A DNA stretch of 64,000 nt from Thermoanaerobaculia bacterium. Its GTDB lineage: Bacteria > Acidobacteriota > Thermoanaerobaculia > Multivoradales > JAHEKO01. Each line of letters begins with the position of its first letter. Positions within the stretch are counted from its first letter, which is position 1. This document shows positions 21,444 to 38,172 of this stretch, piece by piece. The notes below the pieces were generated by a model that had not been told where the DNA came from, made no database searches, and saw nothing but the letters and a program-made list of their open reading frames with translations. Location: assembly GCA_945787635.1 (NCBI GenBank), contig CALZIK010000054.1:1-64000 (forward strand), given 5' to 3'. The position numbers and the translations under genes are program-made.

Positions 21444-24400
21444 TCAGGACCGCAGGCGAGCCAGAACCGGCTCGAGCTTCGAGTCGGCTTCGGCCACCGC
21501 ATCGCGCAGCCGCTCTAGAACGTCGCACCAGCCGACCACGGCGTCGGCGCTCGACTCGCCGCGAGGCACGCCCGAGCTTCGCACGGCGAGCCAGCTCAAG
21601 GCCGCGGCGATGGCTCTCCAGATGAAGAGGCTGTCGAGACGCTCGACGGCGACGGTTCCAGCTTCCGTGTCATAACCGAGCAGGGTCGCCGCGTCGTCCC
21701 GACCGCTGGCGCCAGAGAGCAGTCGTTCCGCTTCGGCGCGTCCGGGGGGAGGCTGGCTGACCATCCAGTTTCCAACCGACACCAGTTCCAGAAGCGCCGC
21801 GAGCTCATCGAGCCTCTCCTGCGGCACGTTCCGCTCGGCCAGTACCCGATGAGCCGCCCGACCGGGCTCGAGCGCTACAGCAGCGGCGTCGCCCCAGCGC
21901 CGGTCCACGTAGCCGAGCAGAGCCAAGGCCGACAGCATGAACCGGGCGTCGGGTTGTTTCTCGGCGCCGGCGAGCAGCCGCTGGTGAGCGCCCAGCATAC
22001 GTTCGGTGCGGGGCCAGTCGAGCGCATGCTCGACGGCCGCCAGCCCCGAGATGGCTTCGAGCCAGGCGTCGAGACCCGAAGCCACCGAGTCGTGCTGGAC
22101 GGGAGACGTGACCGCTTCATGGCCGAGGACCTCCTGCAGCCGGCGATCGAGCTCCTCCAGTTGGGTCTCGACGGCGAGCATCGCGGGCGCCGACGCCGGT
22201 GTCGCCAGGGAGAGTGTTGCGAGTACCTCGACGAACGCGGTTTGCGCGTCTTCGAGACTTACGTCGTGGAGTTCTTGCTCGAGGCTCGGCACACCCCGCG
22301 TGCCGAGGCGTTGTCGCAACCGGGTGTAGACGCCGTCCGGATCCGCGAGCTCTCGAAACTCCACCAGAACGACCGACTCGAAGGGAGCCAGGTCGAGCTC
22401 CAGCCCCTGGTCGTGGATTGCCGCCGAGGCGCGCAGAAACCGGCGCTCCGAAAGGCGGTCGCGAAAGGTAGCGATCCGGCCGACGCGGCCGGAGATGCCC
22501 ACGTCGCGATCGAGTCGCAAAACGCCGCGCGCCGGCGCTGGTTGATTGTTGAAGATGATGATCGCCGTGCCGACTCCAGCTGTGGTGTCCACTCCGGCGC
22601 CGTGCGAGAAGGCGAGCACGTTCTCGTTTCTCTTCCCCCCGGATCCGACGAAGTCGTGCATCGCGAATCCTTCGACGTCGGCGAAACGGCGGCGCTCGCG
22701 CAGGAGTGGAAAGATCTGGCGCTCGTGGCGCTCTAACAGGCCGCGGTTCGGCGTCTCCTCGGAATAGGCTCGTCGGTACTCCATGCCGTAGCGCTCGCGC
22801 AGGCCCTCGAGCTGGCCGTGCGCGATCATCGGCAGTCCAGGCATTGTGGCGAGCAGCAGGCAGGCGCCGAAATAACGATCGCCTTCGCCGAACTGTTCGA
22901 TCGCGGTGCGCTCGTCCGGGTTCGAGAGGAAGTTGACGTAGCGTCGAAGGATCTCCGGGTCAAACGCGAGCGACTCCCGGATTAATTTGCGATAGCCCCG
23001 GTTGTCGCGGTCGCGCAGCATGTTCATGAAAGCGCTGTTGTAGACGCGATGCAGCCCCAGGTTTCGGACGAAGTAGCCCTCCATCAGCCAGAACGCCTCC
23101 GCCAGGAGGAGCGTGTCGGGGGTCTCTTGCTCGGCGCGGTCGACCACGTCGCGCCAGAACTCGCGAGGCATGAGTGAGTCGAACTTCGTGTTGCTTAGGG
23201 TGTGCTCGGCGCGGGACGGGATGGCGCCGGCGCTCCCGGGCTCGGGGTGCCAGAGGCGGCGAACGTGGCGCTTAGCCAGGGTCATCGCGGCGTCGAAACG
23301 AATGATCGGAAACCTGCGCGCGACGTCGAGGATGGTGCCGGTTACCGCCGCCCGGGTCTTCGGATTGAGGTAGTCGAGCTGGGCGGTGTCGTTCCACGGC
23401 GTGCTGGTGCCATCGTTGCCGTGGTAGACGAAGCGGACGCGACCGGTGCGCTTGTCCACTCGTTTGAAGACCACGGCGGCGTCGCTGCGGTCGAAGTAGT
23501 GGTCCTCGATAAAGATAGCGACCCGGGGGTCGGGGGAGAGGTCGGGTCCGTTGAAGGTATAGCTCGGAAAGGGGCAGACCGGCACCGACAAGAAGTACTC
23601 CGGATGCTCGATCAGCCAATCCGAATCGATGGCGGTGTGATTCGGCACCATGTCCGCCGAGAGCCGAATCCCAAACCGGGCGGCTCTTCGGGACAGATTG
23701 TCGAGAGCCGGATCGCCGCCGAGCTCATCGGCGATCCGGTAATCGGCCACGGAGTACGCGGAGCCGAGCGCTTCGGGATTGCCACACAGCTGCTTGATGC
23801 GGCGGGAGGCCCGGCTGCGTTGCCAGATGCCGATCAGCCATAGGCCGGTGATGCCGCTGTCCGCGAGCTTCTCGAGCTCCGCGTCGGGAATCTGGTCGAG
23901 CCGGGTGATCTTCTGCTCGTGCCGCCGGGACAACTGGTGAAGCCAGACGTAGCTGTTCTTGGCGGCCAGAACCAGACTCGACATCCACTGGCGATCGGAG
24001 CCGTAGCGCACGTCGGCGTCATCGAGATGGTCGAAGGCCGGCGCCTCCGGCGGTCCCGCCCCGGGGGGGAACCGCGGTGCGGTCTCCTCGCTGATGAGGT
24101 CGAGTGCCGCGACGAGTTGCGGCTCGAGCTCGGGCGCGAGGTCGCTCCAGTTCTCGAGCATCCAGCTCAGTTGTCCGGAGATCGAATCCGGGGACGCGTC
24201 GATCGGCCGGCGAAGGCCTCGTATCAGGCTCGCGTCCCCGTTGTGAAGCCCAGGCGCCCGATCGAGGATCTCATGCAGGGCGCCGATCACCGATCCGTAG
24301 TCGGGGTCCTTGATCAGCGCGCCGGAGTGGAGCCATTCAAAGACCCGAGCTCCGGCCGGATTCGTGTGGGCGATCGAGAAGATCAAAAGCTCGGCCAACA

Positions 24401-24854
24401 GTTCGCGGCGCCGGCTCGGTTCAATGCCCTCTGCGGGTGCTGCCGGTGCCGCGGGCGTGGCTCCAGCTGATTCGGCGGGCGCGACCGCTCCGAGTGATTG
24501 GGTGGGCTCGGGCGAGAAGTCCCGCTCGAAGGCGATGAGCAGGCGATCGACAGTGGCGCTGCCGAAGCGGTGGTCGAGCACGGCAAGCGCCGCGAGCAGG
24601 CCCTCCGGACCGCGGCGGCTCAAGAACCGCTCGAGATAGGCGGCAAGCCCTCGCTCGAGCCGGCCGAGACCGTAGAGGTCGCCTGCCGATACCGTCGAGG
24701 CGCCGTCCGCCATTAGCGTGCCGAGCCGCTCGGCCAGCACCCGCGCGTCCAAAAAGCTCTGCGACAGCGGCTCGCGACTCTTTTCATGCGGTCGATCCGA
24801 GGCCGATTCCGGCAGAAGCTCCCGCCGAGCCTCGCGGGACAAAAACAGGTGCAT
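21444..24854 (-). CDS. Large GH13 alpha-amylase-superfamily enzyme with long flanking regions
   Basis: 1,136 residues. The barrel occupies about 330-690: region I DMVPNH (401-406), nucleophile D521 in IIRFDAAMTLAKRH, acid E586 in LLLAEAFW and region IV as NPDE (D648). In ordinary amylases region IV has an invariant His before the Asp; here it is Pro, as in GlgE-type maltosyltransferases (NTPD), which also share LAEAF. An Ala/Pro linker (about 125-145) separates an N-terminal helical domain (1-125), and a helical C-terminal region of about 300 residues follows the barrel's beta-domain. Activity may be glucan transfer rather than hydrolysis. It follows an ATP-grasp gene by 59 bases on the same strand. 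Confidence 0.8.
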   Translation of the reverse strand: MHLFLSREARRELLPESASDRPHEKSREPLSQSFLDARVLAERLGTLMADGASTVSAGDLYGLGRLERGLAAYLERFLSRRGPEGLLAALAVLDHRFGSATVDRLLIAFERDFSPEPTQSLGAVAPAESAGATPAAPAAPAEGIEPSRRRELLAELLIFSIAHTNPAGARVFEWLHSGALIKDPDYGSVIGALHEILDRAPGLHNGDASLIRGLRRPIDASPDSISGQLSWMLENWSDLAPELEPQLVAALDLISEETAPRFPPGAGPPEAPAFDHLDDADVRYGSDRQWMSSLVLAAKNSYVWLHQLSRRHEQKITRLDQIPDAELEKLADSGITGLWLIGIWQRSRASRRIKQLCGNPEALGSAYSVADYRIADELGGDPALDNLSRRAARFGIRLSADMVPNHTAIDSDWLIEHPEYFLSVPVCPFPSYTFNGPDLSPDPRVAIFIEDHYFDRSDAAVVFKRVDKRTGRVRFVYHGNDGTSTPWNDTAQLDYLNPKTRAAVTGTILDVARRFPIIRFDAAMTLAKRHVRRLWHPEPGSAGAIPSRAEHTLSNTKFDSLMPREFWRDVVDRAEQETPDTLLLAEAFWLMEGYFVRNLGLHRVYNSAFMNMLRDRDNRGYRKLIRESLAFDPEILRRYVNFLSNPDERTAIEQFGEGDRYFGACLLLATMPGLPMIAHGQLEGLRERYGMEYRRAYSEETPNRGLLERHERQIFPLLRERRRFADVEGFAMHDFVGSGGKRNENVLAFSHGAGVDTTAGVGTAIIIFNNQPAPARGVLRLDRDVGISGRVGRIATFRDRLSERRFLRASAAIHDQGLELDLAPFESVVLVEFRELADPDGVYTRLRQRLGTRGVPSLEQELHDVSLEDAQTAFVEVLATLSLATPASAPAMLAVETQLEELDRRLQEVLGHEAVTSPVQHDSVASGLDAWLEAISGLAAVEHALDWPRTERMLGAHQRLLAGAEKQPDARFMLSALALLGYVDRRWGDAAAVALEPGRAAHRVLAERNVPQERLDELAALLELVSVGNWMVSQPPPGRAEAERLLSGASGRDDAATLLGYDTEAGTVAVERLDSLFIWRAIAAALSWLAVRSSGVPRGESSADAVVGWCDVLERLRDAVAEADSKLEPVLARLRS

Positions 24855-24913: not shown

Positions 24914-26134
24914 CTAGCGCGCGAAGACCTTGACCGTCTGGCCCACCGTGTCGAGGATGTGGCGCAGCTCGTCGTAGTCGTCGTGGCGCATGCGGATCCA
25001 GGCGTTCGCCATGTAGCCGGCTTCGACCGGTTGAGTGGGAGTGCCAGGAGGCGGCAGATGGCTGTCGAGGACCGACGATCCGAAGCGTTGGTGAATCTCC
25101 TCGAGGCCGCGGTAGCCGGCGATGTGTCCGTCGCGGTCCGGTCGCAGGTTGATGATGCCGGTCGAATACCGGCGTGACGGCTGCGTCTCGGTGCGGCCGT
25201 TGACGATCGCCGAGGCCCATTCCCGGAAGATGTCCATGTCGTTGGCCGCCGAATAGAGGTCCCAGGCGCCGACGCCCGGCGGCCGGCAGCCGATCTCGGA
25301 GAACTTGAGCCCTTTCGATCCGAAGAACCATTCCATGTGGGTGGCGGAGGTCTCGATGCCCAAGACCTCGATCACCTTCTTGCCCATCGCGCGGACCTCG
25401 TCATAGGAGTCGGCATCGACGCGATTGGTGGTCAGAAAGTACGGCGAGATCCACCGCGTCCGCATGGCTTCGAGAACTCCCGGGTAGTAATGCGAGATGA
25501 ACTGGTGCGTGATCCGGCCGTCGATGGTGAGGGTGTCGTAGAATGCCTCGTGCCCTTCGATGAACTCTTCCGCCGCGGTCGAGGCTCCGCGATCGATGCC
25601 GCACGCTCGAATCGCGGTCTCTAGCTCGGCGTCGTTGTCCACCCGGTAGGTACCGGCAGCGCCGGCGGAGCTGCGTGGTTTGAGGATGATCGGGTAGCCG
25701 ACCCGCTGGGCGAAAGCGCGGGTCTCTTCCGGCGACGAGACGCCGGCGGACTGGGCGCACGAGACGCCGGCCTCGCGCAGGGCCTCTTTCATAGCCGGCT
25801 TGTCGCGGCACAGAAACGCCGTCCGAACCGAGGTGCCCGGAATCTTGCAAGCCTCCCGGACGCGAGCGACCGGCAGGATGTGCGCCTCGACCGTGGCTTC
25901 GAGCCGATCCACCCAGCCACGGCCCTGGATGCGCCGCACCGTCGCGAGCATCTCCTCCTCGTGGCAAACCGAGCCGACTTGTTCGTAGGCGTGGAGGCTG
26001 CGCTTGACCCGGTCCGGCAGCGCATCCCTGGGCGCTTCGCCGATGCCGGTTACGGTGGCGCCGACCTCGGCCAACGCGCGCACGAACTCCGCCTGATTGC
26101 GGGGAAAGCAGGGCTCGACAAAGATGACGTGCAT
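24914..26134 (-). CDS. ATP-grasp ligase, paralogue 1
   Basis: 406 residues. N-terminal pre-ATP-grasp Rossmann-like segment MHVIFVEPCFPRNQAEFVRA, then the ATP-grasp core: phosphate loop and lysine in GYPIILKPRSSAGAAGTYRV (about 165-185), AEEFIEGHEAFYDTLTIDG, HMEWFFG and the metal-binding FSEIGCRPPG (about 288-297). This is the carbamoyl-phosphate-synthase/biotin-carboxylase-like branch, ligating a carboxylate to an amine or thiol via an acyl phosphate. Homologous along its length to the products at 33455 and 34696. Divergent from the S51-like gene with 49 bases between starts; the GH13 gene follows in the same direction. Substrates unknown. Confidence 0.85.
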   Translation of the reverse strand: MHVIFVEPCFPRNQAEFVRALAEVGATVTGIGEAPRDALPDRVKRSLHAYEQVGSVCHEEEMLATVRRIQGRGWVDRLEATVEAHILPVARVREACKIPGTSVRTAFLCRDKPAMKEALREAGVSCAQSAGVSSPEETRAFAQRVGYPIILKPRSSAGAAGTYRVDNDAELETAIRACGIDRGASTAAEEFIEGHEAFYDTLTIDGRITHQFISHYYPGVLEAMRTRWISPYFLTTNRVDADSYDEVRAMGKKVIEVLGIETSATHMEWFFGSKGLKFSEIGCRPPGVGAWDLYSAANDMDIFREWASAIVNGRTETQPSRRYSTGIINLRPDRDGHIAGYRGLEEIHQRFGSSVLDSHLPPPGTPTQPVEAGYMANAWIRMRHDDYDELRHILDTVGQTVKVFAR

Positions 26135-26168
26135 CGGACTCCCTTTTCAAAGACGGGGTCAAATGCAT

Positions 26169-26174
26169 TATAAC
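26169..26174 (+). promoter_or_regulatory. Possible -10 element of the S51-like/esterase/ATP-grasp operon
   Basis: TATAAC within the AT-rich stretch 26161-26174, ten bases ahead of the start codon at 26184; that spacing suggests a leaderless transcript. No convincing -35 is visible, so this is weak. Confidence 0.3.
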
Positions 26175-26183
26175 TGTGCGGTC

Positions 26184-27158
26184 ATGGGACCGATCCTTCT
26201 ACTTGGACCCCAACGGCTGCGACCGATTCTCGACCGCGTGATGGCGGATCTGGGAATCGAGGGGCGGATCGCCGCGATTACCGCCGGCTGGCAGGAGCGC
26301 GAGGCAGAGGACGACGAGCTCGCCGAGCACCTGAGCGGTCGGACCGTCAATCTCGCGTTGTATCGCCGCGCCGAACAGGTGTTCGAGTCGGATCCCGAGC
26401 TGGCGGCCGCCTCCCACGAGCGCCAAGGCCTGCTCAAACGGGCCCAGGAGCTCTACCGCTTGCGTCTGGACCACTCGATGGCGGCCGTCCGCCAGCTGAT
26501 GCAGCGAGCCGAAGAAACCGAGCTTCTCGAGGAGGAGGTGAGCGCCGCATTCGAGGTCGTACGAAGGCTCGACGACGGACATCTCGAGCGGGTCCGGAAG
26601 ATCCACTCGGGGTTTGAAGAGATGTGGATGCCGCTCGAGCGGCCGTCGGTCGCCGAGCAGCGAACGGAGTTGGTCGAAGTGCTTTCCGAGTGTGATGCCG
26701 TCGCCGTGGCCGGCGGTCACGTCGCGGTGCTGCTCAATCGCCTGAGACTCTTCGGCTTTGGTGAACTGGTCGGGGAGCTGCCGATCGTGGCCTGGTCGGC
26801 CGGCGCAATGGCACTGGCGGAGCGTGTGGTTCTGTTTCACGATTCGCCCCCACAGGGTTTCGGCAACGCCGAGATGCTGGAATCGGGGCTCGGGCTCTAC
26901 GGCCAGATCCTGCCGATGCCGCACGCGCGCCGGCGGCTCCGGCTGCAGGACCCCAACCGGGTGACCGAGCTCGCTCGCCGATTCGCTCCGCGGGTCTGCG
27001 TGCCGATGGATGACGGGGACTATCTGAGGATCGACGGCCCCGCGGCGTGGGCCGAGGCGCCGGTCAGGAGGCTCACCGCCGAGGGGAAGATCGAACGGCT
27101 CGGGGCGGCGGACGAAGGGCGGCGAACGCGGGGCAGCCGCAGCCGGAGAGCGGAATGA
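26184..27158 (+). CDS. S51-like (cyanophycinase/dipeptidase E-like) serine hydrolase
   Basis: 324 residues. The C-terminal half has the class-I-amidotransferase-like fold pattern: CDAVAVAGGHVAVLLNRLRL (about 170-188), as in S51 enzymes where GG precedes the active site, and IVAWSAGAMALAE with candidate nucleophile S205 in the S-A-G-A motif. Residues 70-150 form a helical insert or N-terminal extension unusual for the family. Characterised S51 members cleave aspartyl dipeptides or cyanophycin. Start ATG 26184 preferred; ATG 26163 also in frame. First of four same-strand genes with overlaps or short gaps; stop overlaps the esterase start (ATGA). Confidence 0.6.
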   Translation: MGPILLLGPQRLRPILDRVMADLGIEGRIAAITAGWQEREAEDDELAEHLSGRTVNLALYRRAEQVFESDPELAAASHERQGLLKRAQELYRLRLDHSMAAVRQLMQRAEETELLEEEVSAAFEVVRRLDDGHLERVRKIHSGFEEMWMPLERPSVAEQRTELVEVLSECDAVAVAGGHVAVLLNRLRLFGFGELVGELPIVAWSAGAMALAERVVLFHDSPPQGFGNAEMLESGLGLYGQILPMPHARRRLRLQDPNRVTELARRFAPRVCVPMDDGDYLRIDGPAAWAEAPVRRLTAEGKIERLGAADEGRRTRGSRSRRAE

Positions 27159-28294
27159 GCCTTGCGATCCGCGCCTTCGAGAAGGCGTACACGGGTGAGC
27201 CCGCCGAGATCGACCGGTTTCTCGACGGGCGGAGCTTTCCTCTGCAAGAGGGCACCACGACCACATTTGTCTATCGCGGCGAGGCCGAGGAGGTGCGCCT
27301 GCGGCACTGGATCTTCGGACTCGAGTCCTCGCTCGCATTCACGCGCCTGAAGGACAGCGATCTCTGGTACCTGGTTCTCGAGCTACCCGAGTTGTCGCGG
27401 GTCGAGTACAAGCTCGACCTGTTTCGGCACGGAAAGCACAAGTGGATCCGCGATCCCCGCAATCCGCTCGTCGCCCATGATCCGTTCGGAGCCAACTCGG
27501 TGTTTCAGGGCGTCGGCTACGAGACGCCCGAGTGGACCAGGCCCGACGAGGAAGCGCGGCGCGGCGAGATCGAGGAGTTCACTCTGGAGAGCTCGGCCTT
27601 CGGCGAGGAGCGCACCGTCAAGGTGTACGTGCCGGCTCGTTTTCGCAAGAGCCGGCGCTATCCGGTGCTGGTCGTTCACGACGGCTCCGACTACCTTCGA
27701 TACGCGGGCCTCCGGGCGGTGCTGGACAACCTGATCGACCGGCTCGAGATTCCCGAGCTGATCGTGGCGATGACCGATTCGGGAGACCGCCTGGCCGAGT
27801 ACACCTCCAACCCACTACACGATCGCTTCATCGCGGAGGAGGTTCCGGCCGAGCTCGAGAAGCGCTTTCCGATCGACTCGGATCCCTCGGCGTGGGGCCT
27901 CATGGGGGCCAGTCTAGGCGCCGTGGCGACCCTGTCGGCGGCATGGAGCCACCCCGGTCGCTTCGGCAAGCTCCTGCTCCAGTCAGGGTCGTTCGTCTTC
28001 ACCGACATCGGCGACCGGAACTGGCGAGGGGAGCAGTGGGACGAGGTGGTCAGCTTCATGAACACCTTCAGGGAAGCCCCGGGACTTCCGGCCGAGAGCT
28101 TGTTCGTGAGCTGCGGCATCTACGAGTCGCTCATCTACGAGAACCGGTCCCTCCTACCGATTCTCCAGGCGACCGGGATGGACGTCCGTTACGCCGAGGC
28201 CAGGGACGGACACAACTGGGAGAATTGGCGCGACCGCCTACGAGTCGGCCTGTCCTGGCTTTTCAAGGGCCCACTCTGGATGGTGTACGAATGA
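27155..28294 (+). CDS. Esterase-D/enterochelin-esterase-like alpha/beta hydrolase with N-terminal E-set domain
   Basis: 379 residues. Residues about 35-115 form an E-set/CBM48-like domain (FVYRGEAEEVRLRHWIFG). The catalytic domain (150-379) has VKVYVPARFRKSRRYPVLVV, the nucleophile elbow GASLGA with S253, and the catalytic His in DGHNWENWRDR (H353). Relatives cleave ester bonds of enterobactin or trehalose/mycolyl esters. An E-set domain next to glycogen genes raises the possibility that the protein contacts a glucan. Coupled to the S51-like gene; 24 bases precede the ATP-grasp gene. Confidence 0.85.
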   Translation: MSLAIRAFEKAYTGEPAEIDRFLDGRSFPLQEGTTTTFVYRGEAEEVRLRHWIFGLESSLAFTRLKDSDLWYLVLELPELSRVEYKLDLFRHGKHKWIRDPRNPLVAHDPFGANSVFQGVGYETPEWTRPDEEARRGEIEEFTLESSAFGEERTVKVYVPARFRKSRRYPVLVVHDGSDYLRYAGLRAVLDNLIDRLEIPELIVAMTDSGDRLAEYTSNPLHDRFIAEEVPAELEKRFPIDSDPSAWGLMGASLGAVATLSAAWSHPGRFGKLLLQSGSFVFTDIGDRNWRGEQWDEVVSFMNTFREAPGLPAESLFVSCGIYESLIYENRSLLPILQATGMDVRYAEARDGHNWENWRDRLRVGLSWLFKGPLWMVYE

Positions 28295-28318
28295 GACCTC
28301 GCTATACTCGCGGGTCTT

Positions 28319-29590
28319 ATGGCTGAAGTTACCCGCAAGATAGGACTCTCGCTGGGCGCCGACGTCGATTGGCCGATTTCCTTCGAGCGCATCGTCGAGA
28401 AGCTCGATCTGGCGTTGCCGATCGAGGGAGACACCGTTCGCTTCGAAGTTGAACGGCTCACCATCGAGCCGTTCAACCTGCGCCAGCCGTGCCGGTACGA
28501 TCTGATTCTCGATCGGGTGACCCACTGGTACCACTCGAGCCGCGAGTGGATCAAGAAGGCAATCATCCTCGACGATCTCTACGTTCTCAACAATCCGTGG
28601 TCGCTCCAGTCGATGGAAAAGCACACCAGCTACTGCGCCATGATGAGGCTCGGTCTGCCGGTGCCCGACACGTGGATGATTCCGCAGAAAGAGTACGAGC
28701 CGAGCCCGGACCTGCAGACCACCCTCGAGCGCTACGCTCGTCATTTTGATCTTGGCGAAGTCGGCGAGAAGATCGGTTATCCGCTCTTTATCAAGCCCTA
28801 CGACGGCGGCGGCTGGGTCGGGGTCAGCCGGATCGACAGCGCCGAGGCGCTGCGCGTCGCTTACGAGATGAGCGGCAAGCGCCTGCTTCATCTGCAGAAG
28901 GCGGTCGATCCCTTCGACCTCTTTGTTCGCTGCATTGGGATGGGCCCGCAGGTGCGTTGCGTCCGCTACAACCCAAGCGCGGCGCTTCACGAGCGCTATC
29001 AGGTGGCCTTCAACTTCCTGACCGTCGAGGAGGCCAGCCTGCTCGACGACATGACGCTGACCATCAACAGCTTCTTCGGTTGGGACTTCAACTCGTGCGA
29101 GGCGTTGCGGGCAGACGGCGTCTTTCATCCCATCGACTTCGCCAACGCCTGTCCGGATTCCCAGGTCACCTCGCTGCACTACCACTTCCCTTGGCTGGTC
29201 AAGGCGGCGGTGCGCTGGTCGATCTTCTGCGCGGCGACGCGGCGCAAGATGCGGCGCACCGTCGATTGGGATCCCTACTACGAGATTGCCGACAGCGATC
29301 GTTCGTATCGCGAAAAGCTCGCCGCCTACGCGGCAATCGCCCGAGAGCGACTCGAGGCCGATCGTTTCGAGGAGTTTTGCGCGACCCACCTGGCCCATTT
29401 GGATGAGGTTGCCTGGGAGTTCTTCGGGTCCGATGCCGCCAAGGAGGCGGTTCGGCTCAAGGTCGAGTCGCTCTTCCCGCGCCACGAGGTCGACGAGTTC
29501 ACCGAACACTTCTGGGGGATGCTCAAGTTCTGGCGCAAGACCGAGGGCGAGCGGCTCGGGCTCGTCAGTGCGCCGGGAGAAGGCTCGTGA
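28319..29590 (+). CDS. ATP-grasp domain protein, type 2 (not a paralogue of the other three)
   Basis: 423 residues. The ATP-grasp core is visible as SLQSMEKHTSYCAMMRLGLP (adenine-side helix), IGYPLFIKPYDGGGWVGVSR (about 155-175, lysine and glycine-rich loop) and FHPIDFANACPD, where the usual metal-binding Glu/Asn pair is replaced by D and N. A Trp-rich C-terminal helical region follows. The N-terminus (ISFERIVEKLDLALPIEGDT) has a pre-ATP-grasp character. Substrate unknown; RimK-like or D-Ala-D-Ala-like ligases are the nearest known groups. Sits between two esterases; its TGA overlaps the next GTG. Confidence 0.75.
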   Translation: MAEVTRKIGLSLGADVDWPISFERIVEKLDLALPIEGDTVRFEVERLTIEPFNLRQPCRYDLILDRVTHWYHSSREWIKKAIILDDLYVLNNPWSLQSMEKHTSYCAMMRLGLPVPDTWMIPQKEYEPSPDLQTTLERYARHFDLGEVGEKIGYPLFIKPYDGGGWVGVSRIDSAEALRVAYEMSGKRLLHLQKAVDPFDLFVRCIGMGPQVRCVRYNPSAALHERYQVAFNFLTVEEASLLDDMTLTINSFFGWDFNSCEALRADGVFHPIDFANACPDSQVTSLHYHFPWLVKAAVRWSIFCAATRRKMRRTVDWDPYYEIADSDRSYREKLAAYAAIARERLEADRFEEFCATHLAHLDEVAWEFFGSDAAKEAVRLKVESLFPRHEVDEFTEHFWGMLKFWRKTEGERLGLVSAPGEGS

Positions 29591-30315
29591 AGACCATCTC
29601 CCGCTGGCACTCGCCGCGAGTTCAGCAGGAGGTCACGGTCGCTCGCTGGGGCAACTACGGCGTGCCGGTGCTCTGGTTCGCTACCGCCGGCGGCGATGCC
29701 GAGGAGCCCGAGCGCTTTCTGATGATCAAAGTGCTGGGCCCGCTGATCGAACAGGGTCGGATCAAGTTCTACTCCTGCGACAGCGTTGCCGGGCGGGCCT
29801 GGACGAGTGGCGAGGGGTCGCCGCGCCACCGCTCGTGGCTGCAGAACCAGTTCGACGACTTCATCTACAACGAGGTAGTGCCCGCGATCCGGCAGGACTG
29901 CGGCGGCAGCGTGCCGGAGATCATCACGACCGGAGCCTCGATCGGCGCTTTCAACGCTCTGGCCTCGGTGTGCCGTCACCCCGACGTCTTCAGCCGTGCG
30001 ATCTGCATGAGCGGAACCTACGATCTGAGCAAGTGGTTGGATGGCGACTGGAACGACGACTTCTACTTCTCTTCACCACTTCACTTCCTGCCCGATCTGG
30101 GGGACGGTGCCCATCTCGAGACCCTTCGCAAGCGGTTCATCCTCATGCCCACGGGTGAAGGCCGCTGGGAAGATCCCGGCGAGTCCTGGCGCATGGCCCA
30201 GGTGCTCGGCTCCAAGGGCATTCCCAACCGCGTCGATGGGTGGGGCGCCCAGTGGGACCACGACTGGCCCACATGGCGCGAGATGCTGCCGAAGTACCTC
30301 GACGACTGGGTCTAG
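29587..30315 (+). CDS. Esterase-D-like alpha/beta hydrolase
   Basis: 242 residues from GTG 29587 overlapping the previous stop (GTGA). Nucleophile elbow GASIGAFNA with S118 and a C-terminal DHDWPTWRE with candidate His 225 align with the GASLGA and GHNWENW motifs of the esterase at 27155, so the two are homologous catalytic domains; this one lacks the E-set domain. Probably hydrolyses an ester or thioester made or used by the neighbouring ATP-grasp enzymes. Last gene of the four-gene operon; followed by a long imperfect palindrome. Confidence 0.85.
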   Translation: MKTISRWHSPRVQQEVTVARWGNYGVPVLWFATAGGDAEEPERFLMIKVLGPLIEQGRIKFYSCDSVAGRAWTSGEGSPRHRSWLQNQFDDFIYNEVVPAIRQDCGGSVPEIITTGASIGAFNALASVCRHPDVFSRAICMSGTYDLSKWLDGDWNDDFYFSSPLHFLPDLGDGAHLETLRKRFILMPTGEGRWEDPGESWRMAQVLGSKGIPNRVDGWGAQWDHDWPTWREMLPKYLDDWV

Positions 30316-30472: not shown

Positions 30473-31942
30473 TCAGCGCCCGATGAGTGCTCGATAGAGC
30501 TTGACGTAGAGGGCGCCCTGGCGGTCCCAGGAGAAATCGCGGGCCATGCCGTTGAGCATCAGCCGCTCCCAGGACTCCCGGTCCTGGTAGCTCGCCAGCG
30601 CGTAGCCAAGCGCCCAGCGGAAGGCGTCGGGCGAAAAGTGGTCGAAAACGAAGCCGGTTCCCTCTCCGGTCGCCGAATCGTATAGATCGACGGCGTCGGC
30701 GAGGCCCCCGGTCCGCCGCACGATCGGCACCGTGCCGTACTTCAGGCTGTACATCTGGTTGAGTCCCGACGGCTCGAACTTCGAAGGCATGAGAAAGATG
30801 TCGGCGGCGGCCTCGATCAGGTGGGCGAGCTCCTCGTTGTAGCCGCGGTGGAAGACGGCTCGGCCGGGGAAGGCGCGCTGGAGGTCCCGGAAGGCGGATT
30901 CGTAGCGCGATTCGCCGGTACCCAGGGCGATGAGCTGCGCGCGGCCGGCCCCTAGAGCCTCGCGCAACGGCTCGAACACAACCTCGAAGCCCTTCTGGGC
31001 GGTAAGTCGCGAGACCACACCCAGCAACGGGATTTTCGCGTTGGTGTCGAGGCCGACGCGGCCGGTGACCGCCAGCTTGGTCTTGCGTTTGCCGCCGAGG
31101 TCGGCCGGCGAATAGGAATGCTCGAGGAAGCGATCGGTGCTCGGGTTCCACTCGCCATAGTCGACGCCATTGAGGATCCCGACCAGATGATCGCTTCGCC
31201 TGCGCAGCAGACTCTGCAGCCCCATACCGTATTCATCGGTCTGGAGCTCGAAGGCGTGGGTGGGGCTGACGGTGGTCAGCACATCGGCGTAGAGGATTCC
31301 GGTCTTGAGAAAGCTCAAGGCGCCGGCCTCGAGATCTTCCTGGTGGAGCAGGGCGAGGTCGCCCCCGAGCCCAACCTGCTCGCAGACCTCCGCCGAGAAC
31401 GTGCCCTGGTAACCGATGTTGTGGATGGTCAAGACCGTGCGGCTCTTCTGGAAGAGCCGGTCCCACTCGAAAGTTCGTTTCAGGTAGAGCGGGGTGAGAG
31501 CCGTATGCCAGTCATTGCAGTGGAAGATGTCGGGCGACCAGCCCATGTGCTGGCAGCAGACGATCGCGGCGCGGGACAGAAAGGCGAAGCGGATGGCTTC
31601 ATCGCCACCGTCGGTGTAGATGCCGGGCCGATCGTAGAGCGCCGGGCAGTAGACCAGATAGACAGGGGGTCCGCCGCCGGAAATCGAGGTGGTGAACACG
31701 GTGAAGGTCAGCCGATGGGGGCCGATCTCGAGCTCGATGTCGCGGAGGAAGTCGACCGCGGTGATCCGATGCCCGCGGGTGTCGATGCTCGAGTAAAAAG
31801 GCAGAAAGACGCGGATGTCATGGCCGGCGTCGTGGAGATAACGCGGAAGAGCGGCGCTGACGTCGCCGAGCCCGCCGGTCTTGGCGAACGGCGCGACTTC
31901 GGACGAGGTCCAGCAGATCCGGAGAGGTATTGAAGGATGCAT
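30473..31942 (-). CDS. glgA: Glycogen synthase (ADP-glucose dependent)
   Basis: 489 residues from ATG 31942. GT5 hallmarks: the ADP-glucose loop KTGGLGDV (about 21-28), DIFHCNDWHTALTPLYLKRT, TIHNIGYQGTFS and the C-terminal KFEPSGLNQMYSLKYGT. Elongates alpha-1,4-glucan from ADP-glucose supplied by glgC, which lies upstream on the same strand. No good Shine-Dalgarno precedes the ATG; the 167-base inverted-repeat element ends 14 bases upstream of the start, so translation initiation may have been altered by its insertion. Confidence 0.96.
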   Translation of the reverse strand: MHPSIPLRICWTSSEVAPFAKTGGLGDVSAALPRYLHDAGHDIRVFLPFYSSIDTRGHRITAVDFLRDIELEIGPHRLTFTVFTTSISGGGPPVYLVYCPALYDRPGIYTDGGDEAIRFAFLSRAAIVCCQHMGWSPDIFHCNDWHTALTPLYLKRTFEWDRLFQKSRTVLTIHNIGYQGTFSAEVCEQVGLGGDLALLHQEDLEAGALSFLKTGILYADVLTTVSPTHAFELQTDEYGMGLQSLLRRRSDHLVGILNGVDYGEWNPSTDRFLEHSYSPADLGGKRKTKLAVTGRVGLDTNAKIPLLGVVSRLTAQKGFEVVFEPLREALGAGRAQLIALGTGESRYESAFRDLQRAFPGRAVFHRGYNEELAHLIEAAADIFLMPSKFEPSGLNQMYSLKYGTVPIVRRTGGLADAVDLYDSATGEGTGFVFDHFSPDAFRWALGYALASYQDRESWERLMLNGMARDFSWDRQGALYVKLYRALIGR

Positions 31943-31956
31943 CCGATCCGATGGAC

Positions 31957-32123
31957 TAGTGGCCTGTATCACCCCAAGCGATACTACCTGGCCGGCCCCC
32001 GTCGCCGAATGTCTGCGCTGCGCCTCCTCGACACAGGCACCGCTATGACTGCGTCGGCGCGCCTTGACCTCGACGACGAATGGCTCGGCCATCCAGTATC
32101 GCTTCGAGTGTTACAGGCCACTA
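31957..32123. mobile_element. MITE-like element with 37-bp terminal inverted repeats, between glgC and glgA
   Basis: Left arm 31957-31993 begins TAGTGGCCTGTA; right arm 32087-32123 ends TACAGGCCACTA. The reverse complement of one matches the other at about 31 of 37 positions without gaps. The 93-base interior encodes nothing recognisable. Both outer ends are TA, which would suit an IS630/Tc1-type target TA, but no flanking duplication beyond that is visible. The right arm contributes the TAG stop of glgC (32121-32123 on the minus strand), and the left arm ends 14 bases from the glgA ATG. Confidence 0.6.
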
Positions 32124-33389
32124 AATGACCGTGCCGGGCTCGAGAACCGCGCCCTTTGGCACGACAATGATGCCGCCGCGGATGCAGTAGTTCTCCCCGT
32201 CGGCTTCCTCGACGCCGTCTTGGTTGATCAGGACCGAGTCGTGTCCGATCCTGGCATCGAGATCGATGATCGCGCGGCGGATCTCGCAATTGGGGCCGAT
32301 CCCCAGAGGCACTCGCGAACCCTCTTCGCTGGGGGTCACGAAATGGGTAGCGCCCATAACTACGGTCTGGTCGATCTCGGAGCCCGAGCGGACGATGCCG
32401 CGAATGCCGATGATCGAGTTGGAGATGTGGCTGCCAGAGATGATCGTCCCGTCCGAAAGGATCGCGCGGGTGATCTCACAGCGATCGATCTTGCTACCGG
32501 GCAAGAAGCGCGGGTGGGTGAAGATCGGGAAATCGGGATTGTAGAGGTTGAGCGCCGGTACCGGTACGGTGAGCTCGAGGTTGGCCTGATGAAATGCCGG
32601 GATCGTTCCGATGTCGCGCCAGTATCCCGTCTCCACGTAGCTGAAGACCCGGAAGTTGTCGATCGAGCCCGGGATGACCTCCTTGCCGAAGTCGGTGGCG
32701 CTGGTGCCGGACAGGAGCTTATCGAGGACCTCCGGCCGGAAGGCGTAAATTCCCATGCTCGCGAGGAGCATTCCCGGCTCGGCCTTGATGCGGAGCTTGT
32801 CGATGGTCGTCTGGTCCAGGGTCAGGCTGTCGAGAATGTCCGGATCGTCCGGTTTCTCGACAAAGCGCACGATCCGACCGTCGCGATCGATCCGCATGAT
32901 GCCGAGTCCCGGCGCCTCGTTTCGCGACACCGGCTTGACCGCGATGGTGATGTCCGCGTCATTCTCGCGATGGCTCTTCTCGATGAATTCGCGCAGGTTC
33001 ATCAGGTAGAGCTGGTCGCCCGAGAGAATCAGGATCTCTGAAGGGTTGAGGCTCAGCAGCCGATTCAAGTTCTGTCGCACCGCGTCGGCGGTGCCCTGGT
33101 ACCAGTCGCGGTTCTCGATGCCCTGTTCGGCGGCCAGGATGTTGACGAAGCCCTCGCGGAAGACGTCGAAGCGGTAGCTCTGCGCGATGTGCCGGTGCAG
33201 ACTTACGCTGTTGAACTGGGTCAGAACGAAGATCCGGAAGATGCCCGCCTGCAGGCTGTTGGAGATCGGAATGTCGATCAACCGGAACTTGCCCGCAACC
33301 GGCACCGCCGGCTTGGCGCGGTGGCGGGTCAGCGGCGCGAGCCGTGCGCCCTGCCCGCCCCCCAGAATCGCTGTGACGACGTTTCTCAC
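32121..33389 (-). CDS. glgC: Glucose-1-phosphate adenylyltransferase (ADP-glucose pyrophosphorylase)
   Basis: 422 residues from GTG 33389. N-terminal nucleotidyltransferase motif AILGGGQGARLAPLTRHRAK, substrate-site FVEKPDDPD, GIYAFRPEVLDKLL and the C-terminal left-handed beta-helix (ILSDGTIISGSHISNSIIGI). Makes ADP-glucose for GlgA, the committed and usually allosterically regulated step of glycogen synthesis. GTG 33389 chosen because the homologous N-terminus begins VRNVVTAILGG; no clear ribosome-binding site. Its last codon abuts the inverted-repeat element. Divergent from the ATP-grasp gene at 33455. Confidence 0.95.
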   Translation of the reverse strand: MRNVVTAILGGGQGARLAPLTRHRAKPAVPVAGKFRLIDIPISNSLQAGIFRIFVLTQFNSVSLHRHIAQSYRFDVFREGFVNILAAEQGIENRDWYQGTADAVRQNLNRLLSLNPSEILILSGDQLYLMNLREFIEKSHRENDADITIAVKPVSRNEAPGLGIMRIDRDGRIVRFVEKPDDPDILDSLTLDQTTIDKLRIKAEPGMLLASMGIYAFRPEVLDKLLSGTSATDFGKEVIPGSIDNFRVFSYVETGYWRDIGTIPAFHQANLELTVPVPALNLYNPDFPIFTHPRFLPGSKIDRCEITRAILSDGTIISGSHISNSIIGIRGIVRSGSEIDQTVVMGATHFVTPSEEGSRVPLGIGPNCEIRRAIIDLDARIGHDSVLINQDGVEEADGENYCIRGGIIVVPKGAVLEPGTVI

Positions 33390-33454
33390 GGGAGCGTGGA
33401 TGCTAGCAGGGTGCCCCGGTCGCGACGCGATCAAACGCGGATACAATCCCGGGA

Positions 33455-34699
33455 ATGCACGGCGTCGTTTTCGTGGCTCCGTTCTTTCTCGAGACAACGT
33501 TGCGTTTCCTGGACGCGACCTTGGATCTCCCTGGCGCTCAGGTCGGTCTGGTCAGCCAGGAACCGCTGGAGAAGCTTCCCAGAGGACTCGAGGCGAAGCT
33601 CGCGGCGCACTACCGGGTCGGCGACGCACTCGACACCGGGCAGCTCTCCCACGCGACGCGGACTCTCTCCGAGAAGTTGGGCTCGGTGGACGCGCTGATT
33701 GGCGTCCTCGAGCACTTGCAGGTTCAGCTGGCCGAGGTGCGCGCCGAGCTGGGGATCCCGGGCGTCGATCCGGAGACCGCCCGGAACTTTCGCGACAAGG
33801 CGCGGATGAAGTCGGTGCTGCGAGCGGCGGGCCTGCCGTGTGCCGGCCACCACCTGGCGTCCTCGGCGGCGACGGCGCGCGAATTCGCCCGAGCGGCCGG
33901 CTACCCTCTGGTGATCAAGCCGCCCGCGGGCGCCGGCGCCAAGGGCACCCATCGCATCAACGCGGACTCGGAGCTCGACCAGGCGCTGGCTCTCTACAAC
34001 CCCCGGCCCGGCGCTGAGCTGCTCCTCGAAGAGTTCGTCTCCGGCGACGAGTACTCGTTCGACAGCATTGTCGTAGAGGGTCGGCCGCTCTGGCACTCGT
34101 TCTCGAGATATTTGCCCTCGCCGCTTCAGGTGCTCGAGAACGACTGGATCCAGTGGTGCGTACTGCTGCCGCGCGAAATCGCCGGGCCGCCGTTCGAGAA
34201 ATTCCGGGAAACCGGCATTCGCGCGGTGCGGGCGCTCGGGCTCGAGACCGGCTTGAGCCACATGGAGTGGTTCGATCGCGGCGAGCGGGGCGTCGCGGTC
34301 TCCGAGGTCGGTGCCCGGCCGCCCGGAGCCCGGATCACGACGCTGCTCTCCTATGCCCACGATTTTGATTTCTATCGGGGCTGGGCGCGCCTCATGGTCT
34401 TTGGCGAGTTCGATCCACCGGAGCGTTCCTTCGCCGCCGGTGCCGCCTATCTGAGAGCGCAGAGGAGCGGGCCGGAACTTGCGGGCCGGCCGGGAAGGGT
34501 CGCTGCGATCCAGGGGCTCGACCGGGCACAAGCCGAGCTGGGCGAGCTGGTCGTCGAAGCTCGCCTTCCGGAGCCGGGCCAGCCGATCGGCGACAGCTAC
34601 GAAGGCGAGGGCTATGTGATCCTGAGGCACCCCGACACCGAGGTGGTCGAAGCGGGGCTACGGCGGCTGATTTCGCTGGTGCGGGTCGAGGCGGACTAG
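33455..34699 (+). CDS. ATP-grasp ligase, paralogue 2
   Basis: 414 residues. Same architecture as the product of 24914: N-terminal MHGVVFVAPFFLETTLRFLD, ATP-grasp core with ARMKSVLRAAGLPC, GYPLVIKPPAGAGAKGTHRI (about 150-169), LLEEFVSGDEYSFDSIVVEG, SHMEWFDRG and VSEVGARPPGAR (metal-binding Glu). Carboxylate-amine/thiol ligase of unknown substrate. Starts 66 bases from glgC on the opposite strand and overlaps the convergent paralogue 3 by 4 bases. Confidence 0.85.
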   Translation: MHGVVFVAPFFLETTLRFLDATLDLPGAQVGLVSQEPLEKLPRGLEAKLAAHYRVGDALDTGQLSHATRTLSEKLGSVDALIGVLEHLQVQLAEVRAELGIPGVDPETARNFRDKARMKSVLRAAGLPCAGHHLASSAATAREFARAAGYPLVIKPPAGAGAKGTHRINADSELDQALALYNPRPGAELLLEEFVSGDEYSFDSIVVEGRPLWHSFSRYLPSPLQVLENDWIQWCVLLPREIAGPPFEKFRETGIRAVRALGLETGLSHMEWFDRGERGVAVSEVGARPPGARITTLLSYAHDFDFYRGWARLMVFGEFDPPERSFAAGAAYLRAQRSGPELAGRPGRVAAIQGLDRAQAELGELVVEARLPEPGQPIGDSYEGEGYVILRHPDTEVVEAGLRRLISLVRVEAD

Positions 34700-35913
34700 C
34701 CGGCGAAGATCTGCAGATCGGTGCCGACGCGGTCGGCCATCTCCAGGGTCGCCGCGAGATCCGGATGGCGGACGATCAGGTTGCCGTCCGAGCGCAGCGT
34801 CTGTTTCCAGTCGCGGCGCTGGGCGCCGATCGGCAGGAGATCGATCTCGACGACATGGGGACCGAAGCGCTGGAGAAGCGAGTGCAGACCCTCGATGCGC
34901 TGAATCCGCCCTTGGCCGAGTGCGCGCTTGAAGATGACCGCAGCGTTGTAGCGCCGCTCGAGAGGCTGCGAGAGCCGGCCGTGGCAGACCGCCTCCGCCC
35001 AACCGGAAAAGACATCGAAATCGCTCGCGTAGTTCATGATGTCCACCGACCGTGCTCCCGGGGGTCGCGCGCCGATCTCTCCGAAGACGGCCTCGCCGTC
35101 GTGCTTGCGAAACCACTCCATGTGGGTGAACCCGGTGCGGTAGTCGAGTGCCTTGAGCACCTCTTTTCCCATGCCAAGGCCGCCCGCGAGCTCCGGAGCG
35201 TCGGGATTGCGCAGGGAAACGGTCTGCGGGCTGATCCACTCGTTCGAGCGGCCGAGCAGGGGGCTCGGCCGATACCAGGCGATGTTGTAGTAGAGGATCT
35301 TGCCGCCCGCGCAGATCGTGTCGAAGGTGTACTCCTCACCGTCAATGAACTCCTCGACGCTCACCTCCGGAACGTGACGGATTCGCGGCAGCACGTCTTC
35401 GAGACCTTTTTCGCCGTCGACGCGATAGGTGTCGGCGCTGCCCGCTCCGGCGATCGGCTTGACGATGAGCGGAAACCCGATGTGCTCGGCCGCCTGCCGG
35501 CACTCGGCCGCGGTCGTGGCGCGCGCGTGACGCGGGGTGCGTATGCCGTTGCGGTCCAGCACCCGTTTCATCTCCTCTTTGTCCCGGAAAGGCACGGTCT
35601 GCCCGAGGGTCATGCCGGGAAGACCGAGTTTCTCGCGCAGGCTGGCGGCCAGGAGCATGCCCGGTTCCCAAAGGCATTCGACGCGATCGATGCCAACCCG
35701 GTCGGCCAGGCCGCGCACCGTGGCGAGAATCGCGGGCTCGTCCCACAGCGATTCGACCCGCTCGTAGTAGGCAAGAGCGTTGCGCGCGGTGTCGGGCATC
35801 GCTTCGAGCGGCTGATCTCCGATGCCGATCACTCGCGCCCCGACCTCGGCCAGACCGCGGACGAAATGAGGCATCTCCGCGGGAAAGCCCGGCGAGAAGA
35901 ACAGAACGTTCAT
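34696..35913 (-). CDS. ATP-grasp ligase, paralogue 3
   Basis: 405 residues from ATG 35913. MNVLFFSPGFPAEMPHFVRG at the N-terminus is nearly the same motif as in paralogue 1 (24914). Core: PFRDKEEMKRVLDRNGIRTP, GFPLIVKPIAGAGSADTYRV (about 150-170), VEEFIDGEEYTFDTICAGG, THMEWFRKHD and FGEIGARPPGAR. All three paralogues share the order Lys-loop, EEFI/V-G-E, HMEWF and G(A/C)RPPG, so they likely act on related substrates. It follows the HMG-CoA synthase gene by 23 bases in the same direction. Confidence 0.85.
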   Translation of the reverse strand: MNVLFFSPGFPAEMPHFVRGLAEVGARVIGIGDQPLEAMPDTARNALAYYERVESLWDEPAILATVRGLADRVGIDRVECLWEPGMLLAASLREKLGLPGMTLGQTVPFRDKEEMKRVLDRNGIRTPRHARATTAAECRQAAEHIGFPLIVKPIAGAGSADTYRVDGEKGLEDVLPRIRHVPEVSVEEFIDGEEYTFDTICAGGKILYYNIAWYRPSPLLGRSNEWISPQTVSLRNPDAPELAGGLGMGKEVLKALDYRTGFTHMEWFRKHDGEAVFGEIGARPPGARSVDIMNYASDFDVFSGWAEAVCHGRLSQPLERRYNAAVIFKRALGQGRIQRIEGLHSLLQRFGPHVVEIDLLPIGAQRRDWKQTLRSDGNLIVRHPDLAATLEMADRVGTDLQIFAG

Positions 35914-35936
35914 GACACGCAAACGATCGAGGCGGA

Positions 35937-37034
35937 CTATTCGCGAGATCGGCTGTAGGTCGCGCCGTCGATCGACCGGCGTTGGCTCAAATCTGCCTCG
36001 ATGTCGGAAGCCCAGTCGCCGGCGGCAGCTCTGGGGCCGGCCTCGAGGGTCAACAGCTCGGCACCGAATCCGGATCCGTAGGAGAACGCCGCGATTCGCT
36101 GCCCGGCCGACAGGCCCTTGAGCGCGTTGGCCACCGAGATCCAGAGGCTCGCCGTATAGGCGTTGCCGCAAAGCCGGTTCCAGACCATGGTCGGATTCAC
36201 CTTCTCGAGAAAGAAGCGCTCGATTCTTTCCGCATCCCACGAGAAGAATTCTCCGACTCGAACCACGGCCTTCTTGACCATCTTCGGAAAGGGAACGTGG
36301 AAACAGATCGCGGCCAGCTCCGAGAGCACCTGCTCGGGGTTTTTTGTTCCGACCAGCGCCTTGAAGCAATTCTCCGCCGCGCGGCGATAACAGTCCAGAC
36401 TCAGGGGTCCGTCGACTCGGGGATAGCTCTCGCCGACGGGCCGCCAGAAATCAAATTGCGGCTCGCTCCACGGATAGGAGACGCTGTCGATCGTCGCCAC
36501 CTCGGGCTCGTCGATCACCATGGCGACCGCGCCCGCGCCCTGGGTCGGCTCGCCGGGATCGCCGGGCTCGTAGAGCGCCTCGTCGGCGGCAATCACCAGG
36601 GCCGCCTGATCGCCGGCCGCTCCCGACATCCGCCACTCCGTCGCCTGGCGCACCGCCAGGGTGCCGCCGTAGCATGCGTGCTTGACCTCGTAGGAGCGCA
36701 CGGCTCCGCTCAGACCGAGCTTGTCGGCCACCCAGGCGGAAAGCGGTCTGCTCATATCGAACGCGGTTTCGGTACCCACGGCGAGCATTCCGATCCGATC
36801 GCGATCGCCGCTCCAGCGATCGAGAGCGCGGCGTGCCGCCTCGGTGGCGAGCTCGACCACCCCGTACTCCGGGGTACACAGAGACATCGAGTCGCAGCCC
36901 AGCCCTAGACGGTATTTCTTCGGATCTTCCCCGCGAAGCGGTGCCAGCTCCTCGACCGACATGGCGAGTGGCGGAAGATTCAAGCCGATCGACGCGATTC
37001 CGGTCGGACGCATGGCGAGTGCCGTTGAAGTCAT
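35937..37034 (-). CDS. Hydroxymethylglutaryl-CoA synthase
   Basis: 365 residues from ATG 37034, preceded by AGGGGG at 5 bases. Catalytic triad residues are in place: Glu 89 in VGTETAFDMSRP, Cys 121 in KHACYGGTLAVRQ and His 246 in CFHVPFPKMVKK. Condenses acetyl-CoA with acetoacetyl-CoA to HMG-CoA for mevalonate synthesis or for a related branching reaction. No mevalonate genes are nearby; the nearest partner is the ATP-grasp gene 23 bases downstream. A mevalonate role and a role in modifying a carrier-bound acyl group cannot be told apart here. Confidence 0.9.
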   Translation of the reverse strand: MTSTALAMRPTGIASIGLNLPPLAMSVEELAPLRGEDPKKYRLGLGCDSMSLCTPEYGVVELATEAARRALDRWSGDRDRIGMLAVGTETAFDMSRPLSAWVADKLGLSGAVRSYEVKHACYGGTLAVRQATEWRMSGAAGDQAALVIAADEALYEPGDPGEPTQGAGAVAMVIDEPEVATIDSVSYPWSEPQFDFWRPVGESYPRVDGPLSLDCYRRAAENCFKALVGTKNPEQVLSELAAICFHVPFPKMVKKAVVRVGEFFSWDAERIERFFLEKVNPTMVWNRLCGNAYTASLWISVANALKGLSAGQRIAAFSYGSGFGAELLTLEAGPRAAAGDWASDIEADLSQRRSIDGATYSRSRE

Positions 37035-37143
37035 CTGGACCCCCTGTCGTGAGAGGTAAGTGGCGAAGGCTAGCACGAACGGGCTCGCGCGGCCCCGAGG
37101 ACCCGCGGAACCGGGTGCGAGTTCGCCGATCGCCGGCCGATCG

Positions 37144-38172
37144 CTAGGACTTTTCGGTCGCGCCCAGCTCGAGCTGCAGGACGCCTTCGACCATGGACTC
37201 GTCCGAAGCCCCGTCTCCACCTTCGAAGGATCCCAGGTACATGTACCGGCCAAGCCCACGGAGATACCGAAAGCCGCTTTGGCGAAGCGAAGCCTGGCGA
37301 AGCTGTGCCAGCTTGGCATCCAGGTTGTCGATCATGTGCAAGGCGACTGCTTCGGCCGTGCGTGGCTCCACAGGCGAGCCGTACTCCAGCCGGCCCTGAT
37401 GGGAGAGCACCAGATGCTCGAGATGGAGGCGCGATGCCTCCGGAAACTCCGGGATCTCGGAGCAGCGCTCCCGGAGGAGGTCGCGACCGATGGCGACGTG
37501 GCCAACGAGCTGGCCGACGTCGGTGTAGTCATTGGCGGGCATGGCTCCGATCTCGAGGAGTTTCCCCAGGTCGTGAAAGAGCACTCCGAGCAAAAGCAGA
37601 TCGCGGTCGAGCTCGGGGTAATGCCCGGCCACCGCCGAGGCCAGTTCGGCCATCGAGACTACGTGCTCGAGCAAGCCGCCGCGATAGGCGTGGTGGATGG
37701 TCTTGGCCGCCGGATGCTCTTTCAACGCTTGGCCGTGGGTCGCCAGGGTCTCGCGCGCCAGCCGGGCGAGATGAGGCTCACCGAGCGTTTGGTACACGGA
37801 CTCGAGGCGTCGCCAGAGGTCTTCCGGGTCCTCGGGGGTCGAGGGAATGAGCTTGGCTTCGTCGAAGCCCCGTTCACGGTCTTCGTCGCCCGCGCGGCGG
37901 CATTGATCCACGCTGAGCTGGACCTGATCCCTGAAACTTTTGACCAGTCCGCGAAACGCGACGAAGTCGTGGGCGTCGAAATCGGCGTCGATCGCAGGGC
38001 TGTCGGCCCAGATTTTCGCGAAGATCGTAGCGGTATTGTCGGTCAGCTCGAGGTCGACGTAGTCGCGAGCGTTGCGATCCTGGCGGCGCTCCTTGCGCGA
38101 AACCAGGGCGAAGCCGGCCACGGAGTCGCCCGGCAGCCATTCGGCGATAGGGATGTTTTGGCGCGTCGGCAT
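37144..38172 (-). CDS. OB-fold/HD-domain 3'-5' exoribonuclease-like protein (YhaM family)
   Basis: 342 residues starting at MPTRQNIPI (ATG 38172). An N-terminal OB-fold (about 15-100; DYVDLELTDNTATIFAKIW) precedes an HD domain with HHAYRGGLLEHVVSM, LGVLFHDLGKLLEIG and a late Asp, the order seen in YhaM-type 3'-5' exonucleases, which degrade RNA or process DNA. Metal ligands H, HD and D are all identifiable. Single gene, divergent from the VWFA gene 41 bases away. Confidence 0.85.
   Translation of the reverse strand: MPTRQNIPIAEWLPGDSVAGFALVSRKERRQDRNARDYVDLELTDNTATIFAKIWADSPAIDADFDAHDFVAFRGLVKSFRDQVQLSVDQCRRAGDEDRERGFDEAKLIPSTPEDPEDLWRRLESVYQTLGEPHLARLARETLATHGQALKEHPAAKTIHHAYRGGLLEHVVSMAELASAVAGHYPELDRDLLLLGVLFHDLGKLLEIGAMPANDYTDVGQLVGHVAIGRDLLRERCSEIPEFPEASRLHLEHLVLSHQGRLEYGSPVEPRTAEAVALHMIDNLDAKLAQLRQASLRQSGFRYLRGLGRYMYLGSFEGGDGASDESMVEGVLQLELGATEKS

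Follow-up and report, generated by a model that had tools for sequence, protein, structure and literature searches.

Within the window, by which we mean the whole stretch of 64,000 nucleotides that was analyzed, a group of ligase and hydrolase genes lies among genes of glycogen metabolism. Four of them form an operon on the plus strand: an S51-fold protein with a long helical insert (26184-27158), the PF00756 esterase EstA, which is similar to enterochelin esterase Fes (27155-28294), AG2, a divergent ATP-grasp protein with a helical C-terminal extension (28319-29590), and EstB, a small PF00756 esterase (29587-30315). The S51 and EstA genes share a 4-base ATGA overlap, EstA and AG2 are 24 bases apart, and AG2 and EstB share a 4-base GTGA overlap. 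AG1, an ATP-grasp protein resembling the L-amino acid ligases of the BacD/RizA group, is encoded on the minus strand (24914-26134) and diverges from the operon across a gap of 49 bases. An earlier note on this DNA had described the four co-directional genes (starting at 26184, 27155, 28319 and 29587) with their overlaps and 24-base gap, and the ATP-grasp gene diverging from them by 49 bases; all of these coordinates were confirmed. Pfam supports the families that it named (ATP-grasp, S51 and two esterases), AG2 being recognized as an ATP-grasp protein through its fold.

Beyond EstB lie glgA, encoding glycogen synthase (30473-32092, minus strand), and glgC, encoding ADP-glucose pyrophosphorylase (32121-33497, minus strand). 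Immediately past glgC are two paralogues of AG1, the ATP-grasp proteins AG3 (33455-34699, plus strand; ∼33% identity) and AG4 (34696-35916, minus strand; ∼36% identity), with the start of AG4 set by homology at MNVLFFSPGFP. These two were absent from the gene set originally described, and both belong to the same conserved set. The flanking of the locus by glycogen genes was also borne out, with glgP, malQ and a glgX-like gene present in the window in addition to glgA and glgC. Between glgX and AG1 sits a gene for a GH13-like protein of 1136 aa whose amylase core is weak (21444-24854, minus strand); this gene occurs near the module in just two other loci, both from Acidobacteriota (L033 and L036). 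An HMG-CoA-synthase-like gene (35937-37319, minus strand) lies immediately upstream of AG4 and shares its strand; it was found near the module in none of 80 loci.

Named genomes were searched with AG2, and the 80 loci that were kept span seven phyla: Myxococcota, Planctomycetota, Acidobacteriota, Pseudomonadota, Actinomycetota, Gemmatimonadota, and Candidatus Eiseniibacteriota. EstA lies directly before AG2 in the same direction in 75 of them, AG2 is followed by an adjacent EstB in 69, S51 by an adjacent EstA in 62, and AG1 precedes S51 in 31. Since the same gene order is found in seven phyla, it is confirmed that the order S51-EstA-AG2-EstB occurs far above chance expectation. Furthermore, glgA precedes AG1 co-directionally in 25 of the 80 loci with a median gap of 23 bases, and gene distances correlate over the loci, both for AG1 and glgA (rho 0.70) and for EstA and glgA (rho 0.72). 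In the 33 loci whose flanks extend for 8 kb or more on each side, AG1 is present in 23, AG4 in 18, AG3 in 17, and glgA in 16. The unit is the S51-EstA-AG2-EstB operon with AG1 divergent, and with AG3, AG4, and glgA as further members. Median pairwise identity across phyla is 64% for AG2, 63% for AG1, and 45% for S51, the least conserved member. Other genes join the module in some groups: EstB has a GCS2-CBS gene after it in 26 of the 80 loci, and formylglutamate-amidohydrolase-like, aspartoacylase-like, and GCS2-CBS genes (L054:4283-5206, L103:14036-15247, L075:4402-6507) join mostly in Myxococcota, GCS2-CBS doing so in Actinomycetota too.

The earlier note had proposed a neighborhood comparison with the glg genes and had taken scattering of the four genes in related genomes as the outcome that would speak against a unit. 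The quartet proved syntenic in most of the 80 loci with glgA as a frequent neighbor, and its genes remain clustered over seven phyla. That the arrangement reflects chance, or hitchhiking within the glycogen locus of one lineage, is scarcely credible: although glgP, malQ, glgX, and the 1136-aa GH13 gene truly are lineage-specific neighbors, the recurrence of the quartet with AG1, AG3, AG4, and glgA in seven phyla refutes this explanation for the quartet, and members that are not linked on a contig still co-occur by genome.

This co-occurrence was followed in 59 genomes of the order, where AG2 and S51 agree in 57 (35 with both, 22 with neither; Fisher 3e-14) and AG2 and AG1 agree in 55. Exceptions to the joint presence of AG2, S51, and AG1 are few, mostly in incomplete assemblies. 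Matches of AG3 or AG4 grade are found in the module-bearing genomes of the order and not in the module-less ones, some of which keep glgA and have only weak ATP-grasp matches. EstB is weaker as a strict co-member, as in many genomes of the order the only EstB-like gene is more divergent and lies elsewhere. Within one of the families of the order, each genome has two or three copies of AG1 with high scores (G024, G032, G038). Across the phylum, full-score AG2 is present in just 8 of 217 genomes, a patchy distribution. EstA at E ≤ 1e-60 is rare outside a few groups, being found once in the 274 genomes that were sampled from the class to which the Granulosicoccus genome belongs, and none of the plasmid records searched encodes AG2. 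Elsewhere in the phylum, a remote AG2-like family (130-180 bits) is found beside genes for EstB-like and GCS2 proteins (L124:7756-11316, L127:6850-8552, L128:6981-9085, L123:5589-9182), and the last of these loci also has a circularly permuted ATP-grasp-like gene. This suggests an older, possibly ancestral, core of ligase and esterase without glgA.

As regards glycogen, the module is linked to synthesis and not to breakdown. In the genome of the window, glgA is the only match above the TIGR02095 cut-off (525 bits against 328). Within the order, glgA exceeds this cut-off in 45 of the 59 genomes, including all 35 with AG2; ten genomes have glgA without AG2, two of them retaining S51 and AG1, and 14 lack both. 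As there is a single copy in nearly all glgA-containing genomes of the order, the module-linked gene encodes the glycogen synthase of the organism, as opposed to a surplus paralogue. It is also the conserved glycogen partner, since glgA is near the module in 16 of the 33 long-flank loci as against none for glgP, three for malQ, and two for glgX; these breakdown genes are local neighbors only, and glgC is near the module in 5 of 33 loci. Of the make-and-break unit in a glycogen locus that had been suggested for this DNA, a conserved set of ligases and hydrolases tied to glycogen synthesis stands, and the link to breakdown genes does not hold generally.

Because 17 of the 33 long-flank loci are without a nearby glgA, this gene may be merely co-regulated with the module. 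In this respect, the module could make a free small peptide or amino acid conjugate, a nitrogen store or an osmolyte, that is never placed on a glucan, with glgA as a neighbor through joint regulation of carbon and nitrogen reserves. The three paralogous ATP-grasps of L-amino acid ligase type suggest amino acid chemistry, and the GCS2-CBS gene of 26 loci and the formylglutamate- or aspartoacylase-like hydrolases of some also favor such a product. However, the tight glgA-AG1, NFGA-glgA, and AG3-glgA operons that recur over phyla exceed what loose co-regulation would give, every AG2-containing genome in the order sample has glgA, and the two esterases are left needing a role. We regard a free conjugate as possible but on balance unlikely.

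ATP-grasp enzymes of the grade seen here use ATP to link a carboxylate with an acceptor, which is an amine or a related group. A Pfam ATP-grasp match among the ligases reaches 40.5 bits, and the best PDB matches of an AG1 profile are the L-amino acid ligase 4wd3 (1.3e-14) and BacD. AG1 directly adjoins glgA in many other genomes. AG3 has a weak match to the LAL_C2 domain. In AG2, where mean column identity is 72% in a cross-phylum alignment of 28 rows, the Pfam domain Dala_Dala_lig_C scores 21.5 bits, below its cut-off of 24. The predicted model of AG2 (pLDDT 85) clearly has the fold of the ATP-grasp ligases in a structural search; its top match is ArgX bound to LysW, with VanA, Ddl, and RimK (RimK-RpsF) scoring similarly, so that the ranking is not discriminating.

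Enzymes of the PF00756 family hydrolyse or transfer acyl groups. EstA and EstB match this family at 84.1 and 36.0 bits, and both have the domain and its catalytic Ser and His, which are invariant as Ser253 and His353 of EstA (30-row alignment) and as Ser118 and His225 of EstB (29-row alignment). The best PDB match of an EstA profile is the enterochelin esterase Fes (2b20, 5.7e-24). An E-set domain claimed earlier for one esterase, EstA, is no more than hinted at by the sequence, with Enterochelin_N at 18.5 bits and its cut-off at 27.1. The resemblance to Fes, together with S51 relatives that can inactivate peptidyl-nucleotide antibiotics (PMC9239234), would fit a siderophore- or antibiotic-like specialized metabolite pathway or a detoxification set. 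This is very doubtful, given that clustering of the neighborhoods gave no recurrent transporter or NRPS family and that the genes are strongly conserved, mostly single copy, and tied to glgA, a gene of primary metabolism.

The S51 protein scores above the cut-off for Peptidase_S51 (PF03575; 26.3 bits against 23.9), and in Foldseek its predicted model (pLDDT 86) matches peptidase E and cyanophycinase, apart from additional long helices around residues 71-168. In the profile alignment, Ser205 corresponds to the Ser, and His247 to the PHA His region, of a solved peptidase E. In PepE, Ser120 and His157 are both needed, and MccG lost its activity when the corresponding His was changed to Ala (PMC9239234). 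In the window copy, Ser205, Asp220, and His247 are all present. Such residues are not general in its clade: among 118 S51 copies, 17 have C, A, G, or T in place of Ser205, and 44 have D, Q, N, or another residue at the position aligned with His247. A simple degradative peptidase is ruled out for many lineages by this loss, and the bond-breaking role given to S51 in the earlier note does not extend to a generally conserved peptidase. Arg251 is kept in 117 of the 118 copies and Arg266 in all 118, with Met209 and Pro246 nearly invariant, and where catalytic residues are lost the C-terminal tail described below is present in every readable EstA partner. Because Ser, His, or both are lost in many lineages while the two Arg residues are kept, S51 probably binds the C-terminus of EstA instead of cleaving peptides there, and we infer that what the S51 copies have in common is binding rather than cleavage. 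The window copy may be catalytic, since its Ser, Asp, and His are intact.

In the window, EstA ends in GPLWMVYE (28268-28291, plus strand), the last residue directly preceding the stop codon. Across 141 copies, some of them near-duplicates, the C-terminus is exactly (V/I)Y(E/D/L)-COOH, with Y-E in 136, Y-D in 3, Y-L in 2, and few variants of the residue before Y. Tail-less EstA is found in 15 genomes, of which 14 are without any S51 match and one has a remote, unlinked match of 73 bits. Named loci without S51 have a tail-less EstA except for two, whose EstA sat at a contig end. It was predicted in advance, and then confirmed by whole-genome searches for S51, that the two tailed genomes would have S51 off the contig and the others none. 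In a second genome set, every tailed genome has S51, three tail-less genomes have none, and one has only the remote 73-bit match. On the best EstA tree, built after removing the tail columns, the tail changes at least four times, and tail-less EstA is placed basally and again within tailed groups (Acidimicrobiia and two Gemmatimonadota). In evolutionary terms, the pairing of the tail with S51 is obligate. It is exact genome by genome, and the independent events behind it are few, because tail and S51 change together on about four branches, two of them forced by well-supported branching. The Y-D and Y-L tails coincide with the degenerate S51 motifs AWAGG, AWSGG, GRAAG, and ACAGG (L142, L143, L145, L146). 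Acidimicrobiia EstA without the YE tail (L073, L081, L092, L110) have a longer proline-rich extension with an acidic stretch and a terminal Gly, ending in EETHG, EETDG, GEING, or EERYG.

It is known that ArgX and LysX ligate amino acids onto LysW, and RimK onto ribosomal protein S6. A Tyr-Glu or Tyr-Asp conserved exactly at the stop codon, the ArgX-LysW complex as the top fold match of AG2 with RimK-RpsF also high, and a partner from a peptidase family could together indicate that EstA is a carrier or tagged protein, to whose C-terminal Glu an ATP-grasp enzyme adds amino acids that S51 removes. We consider this improbable. The idea of a LysW-like carrier was downgraded because tail-less genomes retain the ligases, AG1 to AG4 persisting independently of the tail in the Acidimicrobiia loci; moreover, the S51 nucleophile and His are gone in many tailed lineages, and fold ranking does not discriminate among the ATP-grasps.

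Taken together, these observations lead us to propose, tentatively, what the locus may well be: a conserved module for biosynthesis and turnover that is attached to glycogen synthase, and in which ligases and esterases handle an amino-acid-derived conjugate and S51 docks EstA. AG1, AG3, and AG4, of L-amino acid ligase type, and AG2, with its RimK/ArgX/D-Ala-D-Ala-ligase fold, would join amino-acid-like units successively with ATP, and the resulting unit would be esterified to a glucan or another hydroxyl compound. EstA and EstB would transfer or hydrolyse the product ester, plausibly on a glucan or glucosyl compound from GlgA. S51 would be the docking subunit that holds the carboxyl terminus of EstA, its ancestral peptidase pocket reused and catalysis dispensable in many lineages. 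A more specific form of this proposal, is unlikely as it stands: a new covalent modification of glycogen or a glucan precursor with amino acid or peptide units, which four ATP-grasps would make and which would be handled by an esterase anchored at its C-terminus to an S51 fold that has changed its function and often lost catalysis. The customary view of glycogen is that of a simple polymer of glucose, served by few enzymes. A module that is conserved in at least seven phyla, that in the sampled order is found only in glgA-bearing genomes, and that is often operonic with glgA would imply an unrecognized modified or primed glucan, or an amino acid store coupled to glucan. If this is true, the EstA tail and S51 would illustrate well how a peptidase fold can become a reader of a C-terminus.

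Several known systems share parts of this gene set. The cyanophycin system was rejected: TIGR02068, whose cut-off is 850, gives 29-36 bits for AG1, AG3, and AG4, no module protein is CphA, and the explanation by cyanophycin with cphA, against which the earlier note had weighed its proposal, falls away. The S51 protein shares its Pfam domain and fold with cyanophycinase and peptidase E, but it differs in its long helical insert, the frequent loss of Ser and His, its constant EstA partner, and the lack of CphA among the module proteins. L-amino acid ligases such as BacD, RizA, and BL00235 are similar to AG1 in the ATP-grasp domain and best PDB match, whereas a module ligase scores 40 bits against the BacD equivalog cut-off of 850, and the module has three paralogues per genome linked to glgA. 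EstA shares with Fes and the esterase D family its match to 2b20 and the retained Ser and His; unlike them, it adds a (V/I)Y(E/D) tail, and siderophore genes are not recurrent nearby. With ArgX/LysX-LysW and RimK there are in common the ATP-grasp fold of AG2 and a module protein (EstA) that ends in a conserved Glu, but the EstA tail tracks S51 and not the ligases, no LysW gene was seen, and neighborhood clustering of the loci, which left out ORFs under 90 aa, gave no family of LysW-type carriers.

We found no description of this gene set, under any name, in the open-access papers searched, in agreement with the earlier note; as the search covered open-access papers only, the absence is a weak one. 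The closest theme is that of linked peptide-ligase operons, which the amidoligase survey of Iyer et al. (Mol BioSyst, 2009) is said to treat as well. In these operons, ATP-grasp enzymes are found with COOH-NH2 ligases, GNATs, and peptidases (PMC4431377). As in the module, several distinct ATP-grasp ligases are operonic with hydrolases, and successive ligations are the usual inference. The module differs in its tie to glgA, in its fixed complement of three LAL-type ATP-grasps with AG2 and two PF00756 esterases, and in the pairing of the EstA tail with S51. Operons with several ATP-grasp ligases are thus already known; what is new here is the EstA-tail/S51 pairing and, as far as the papers searched show, the set itself.
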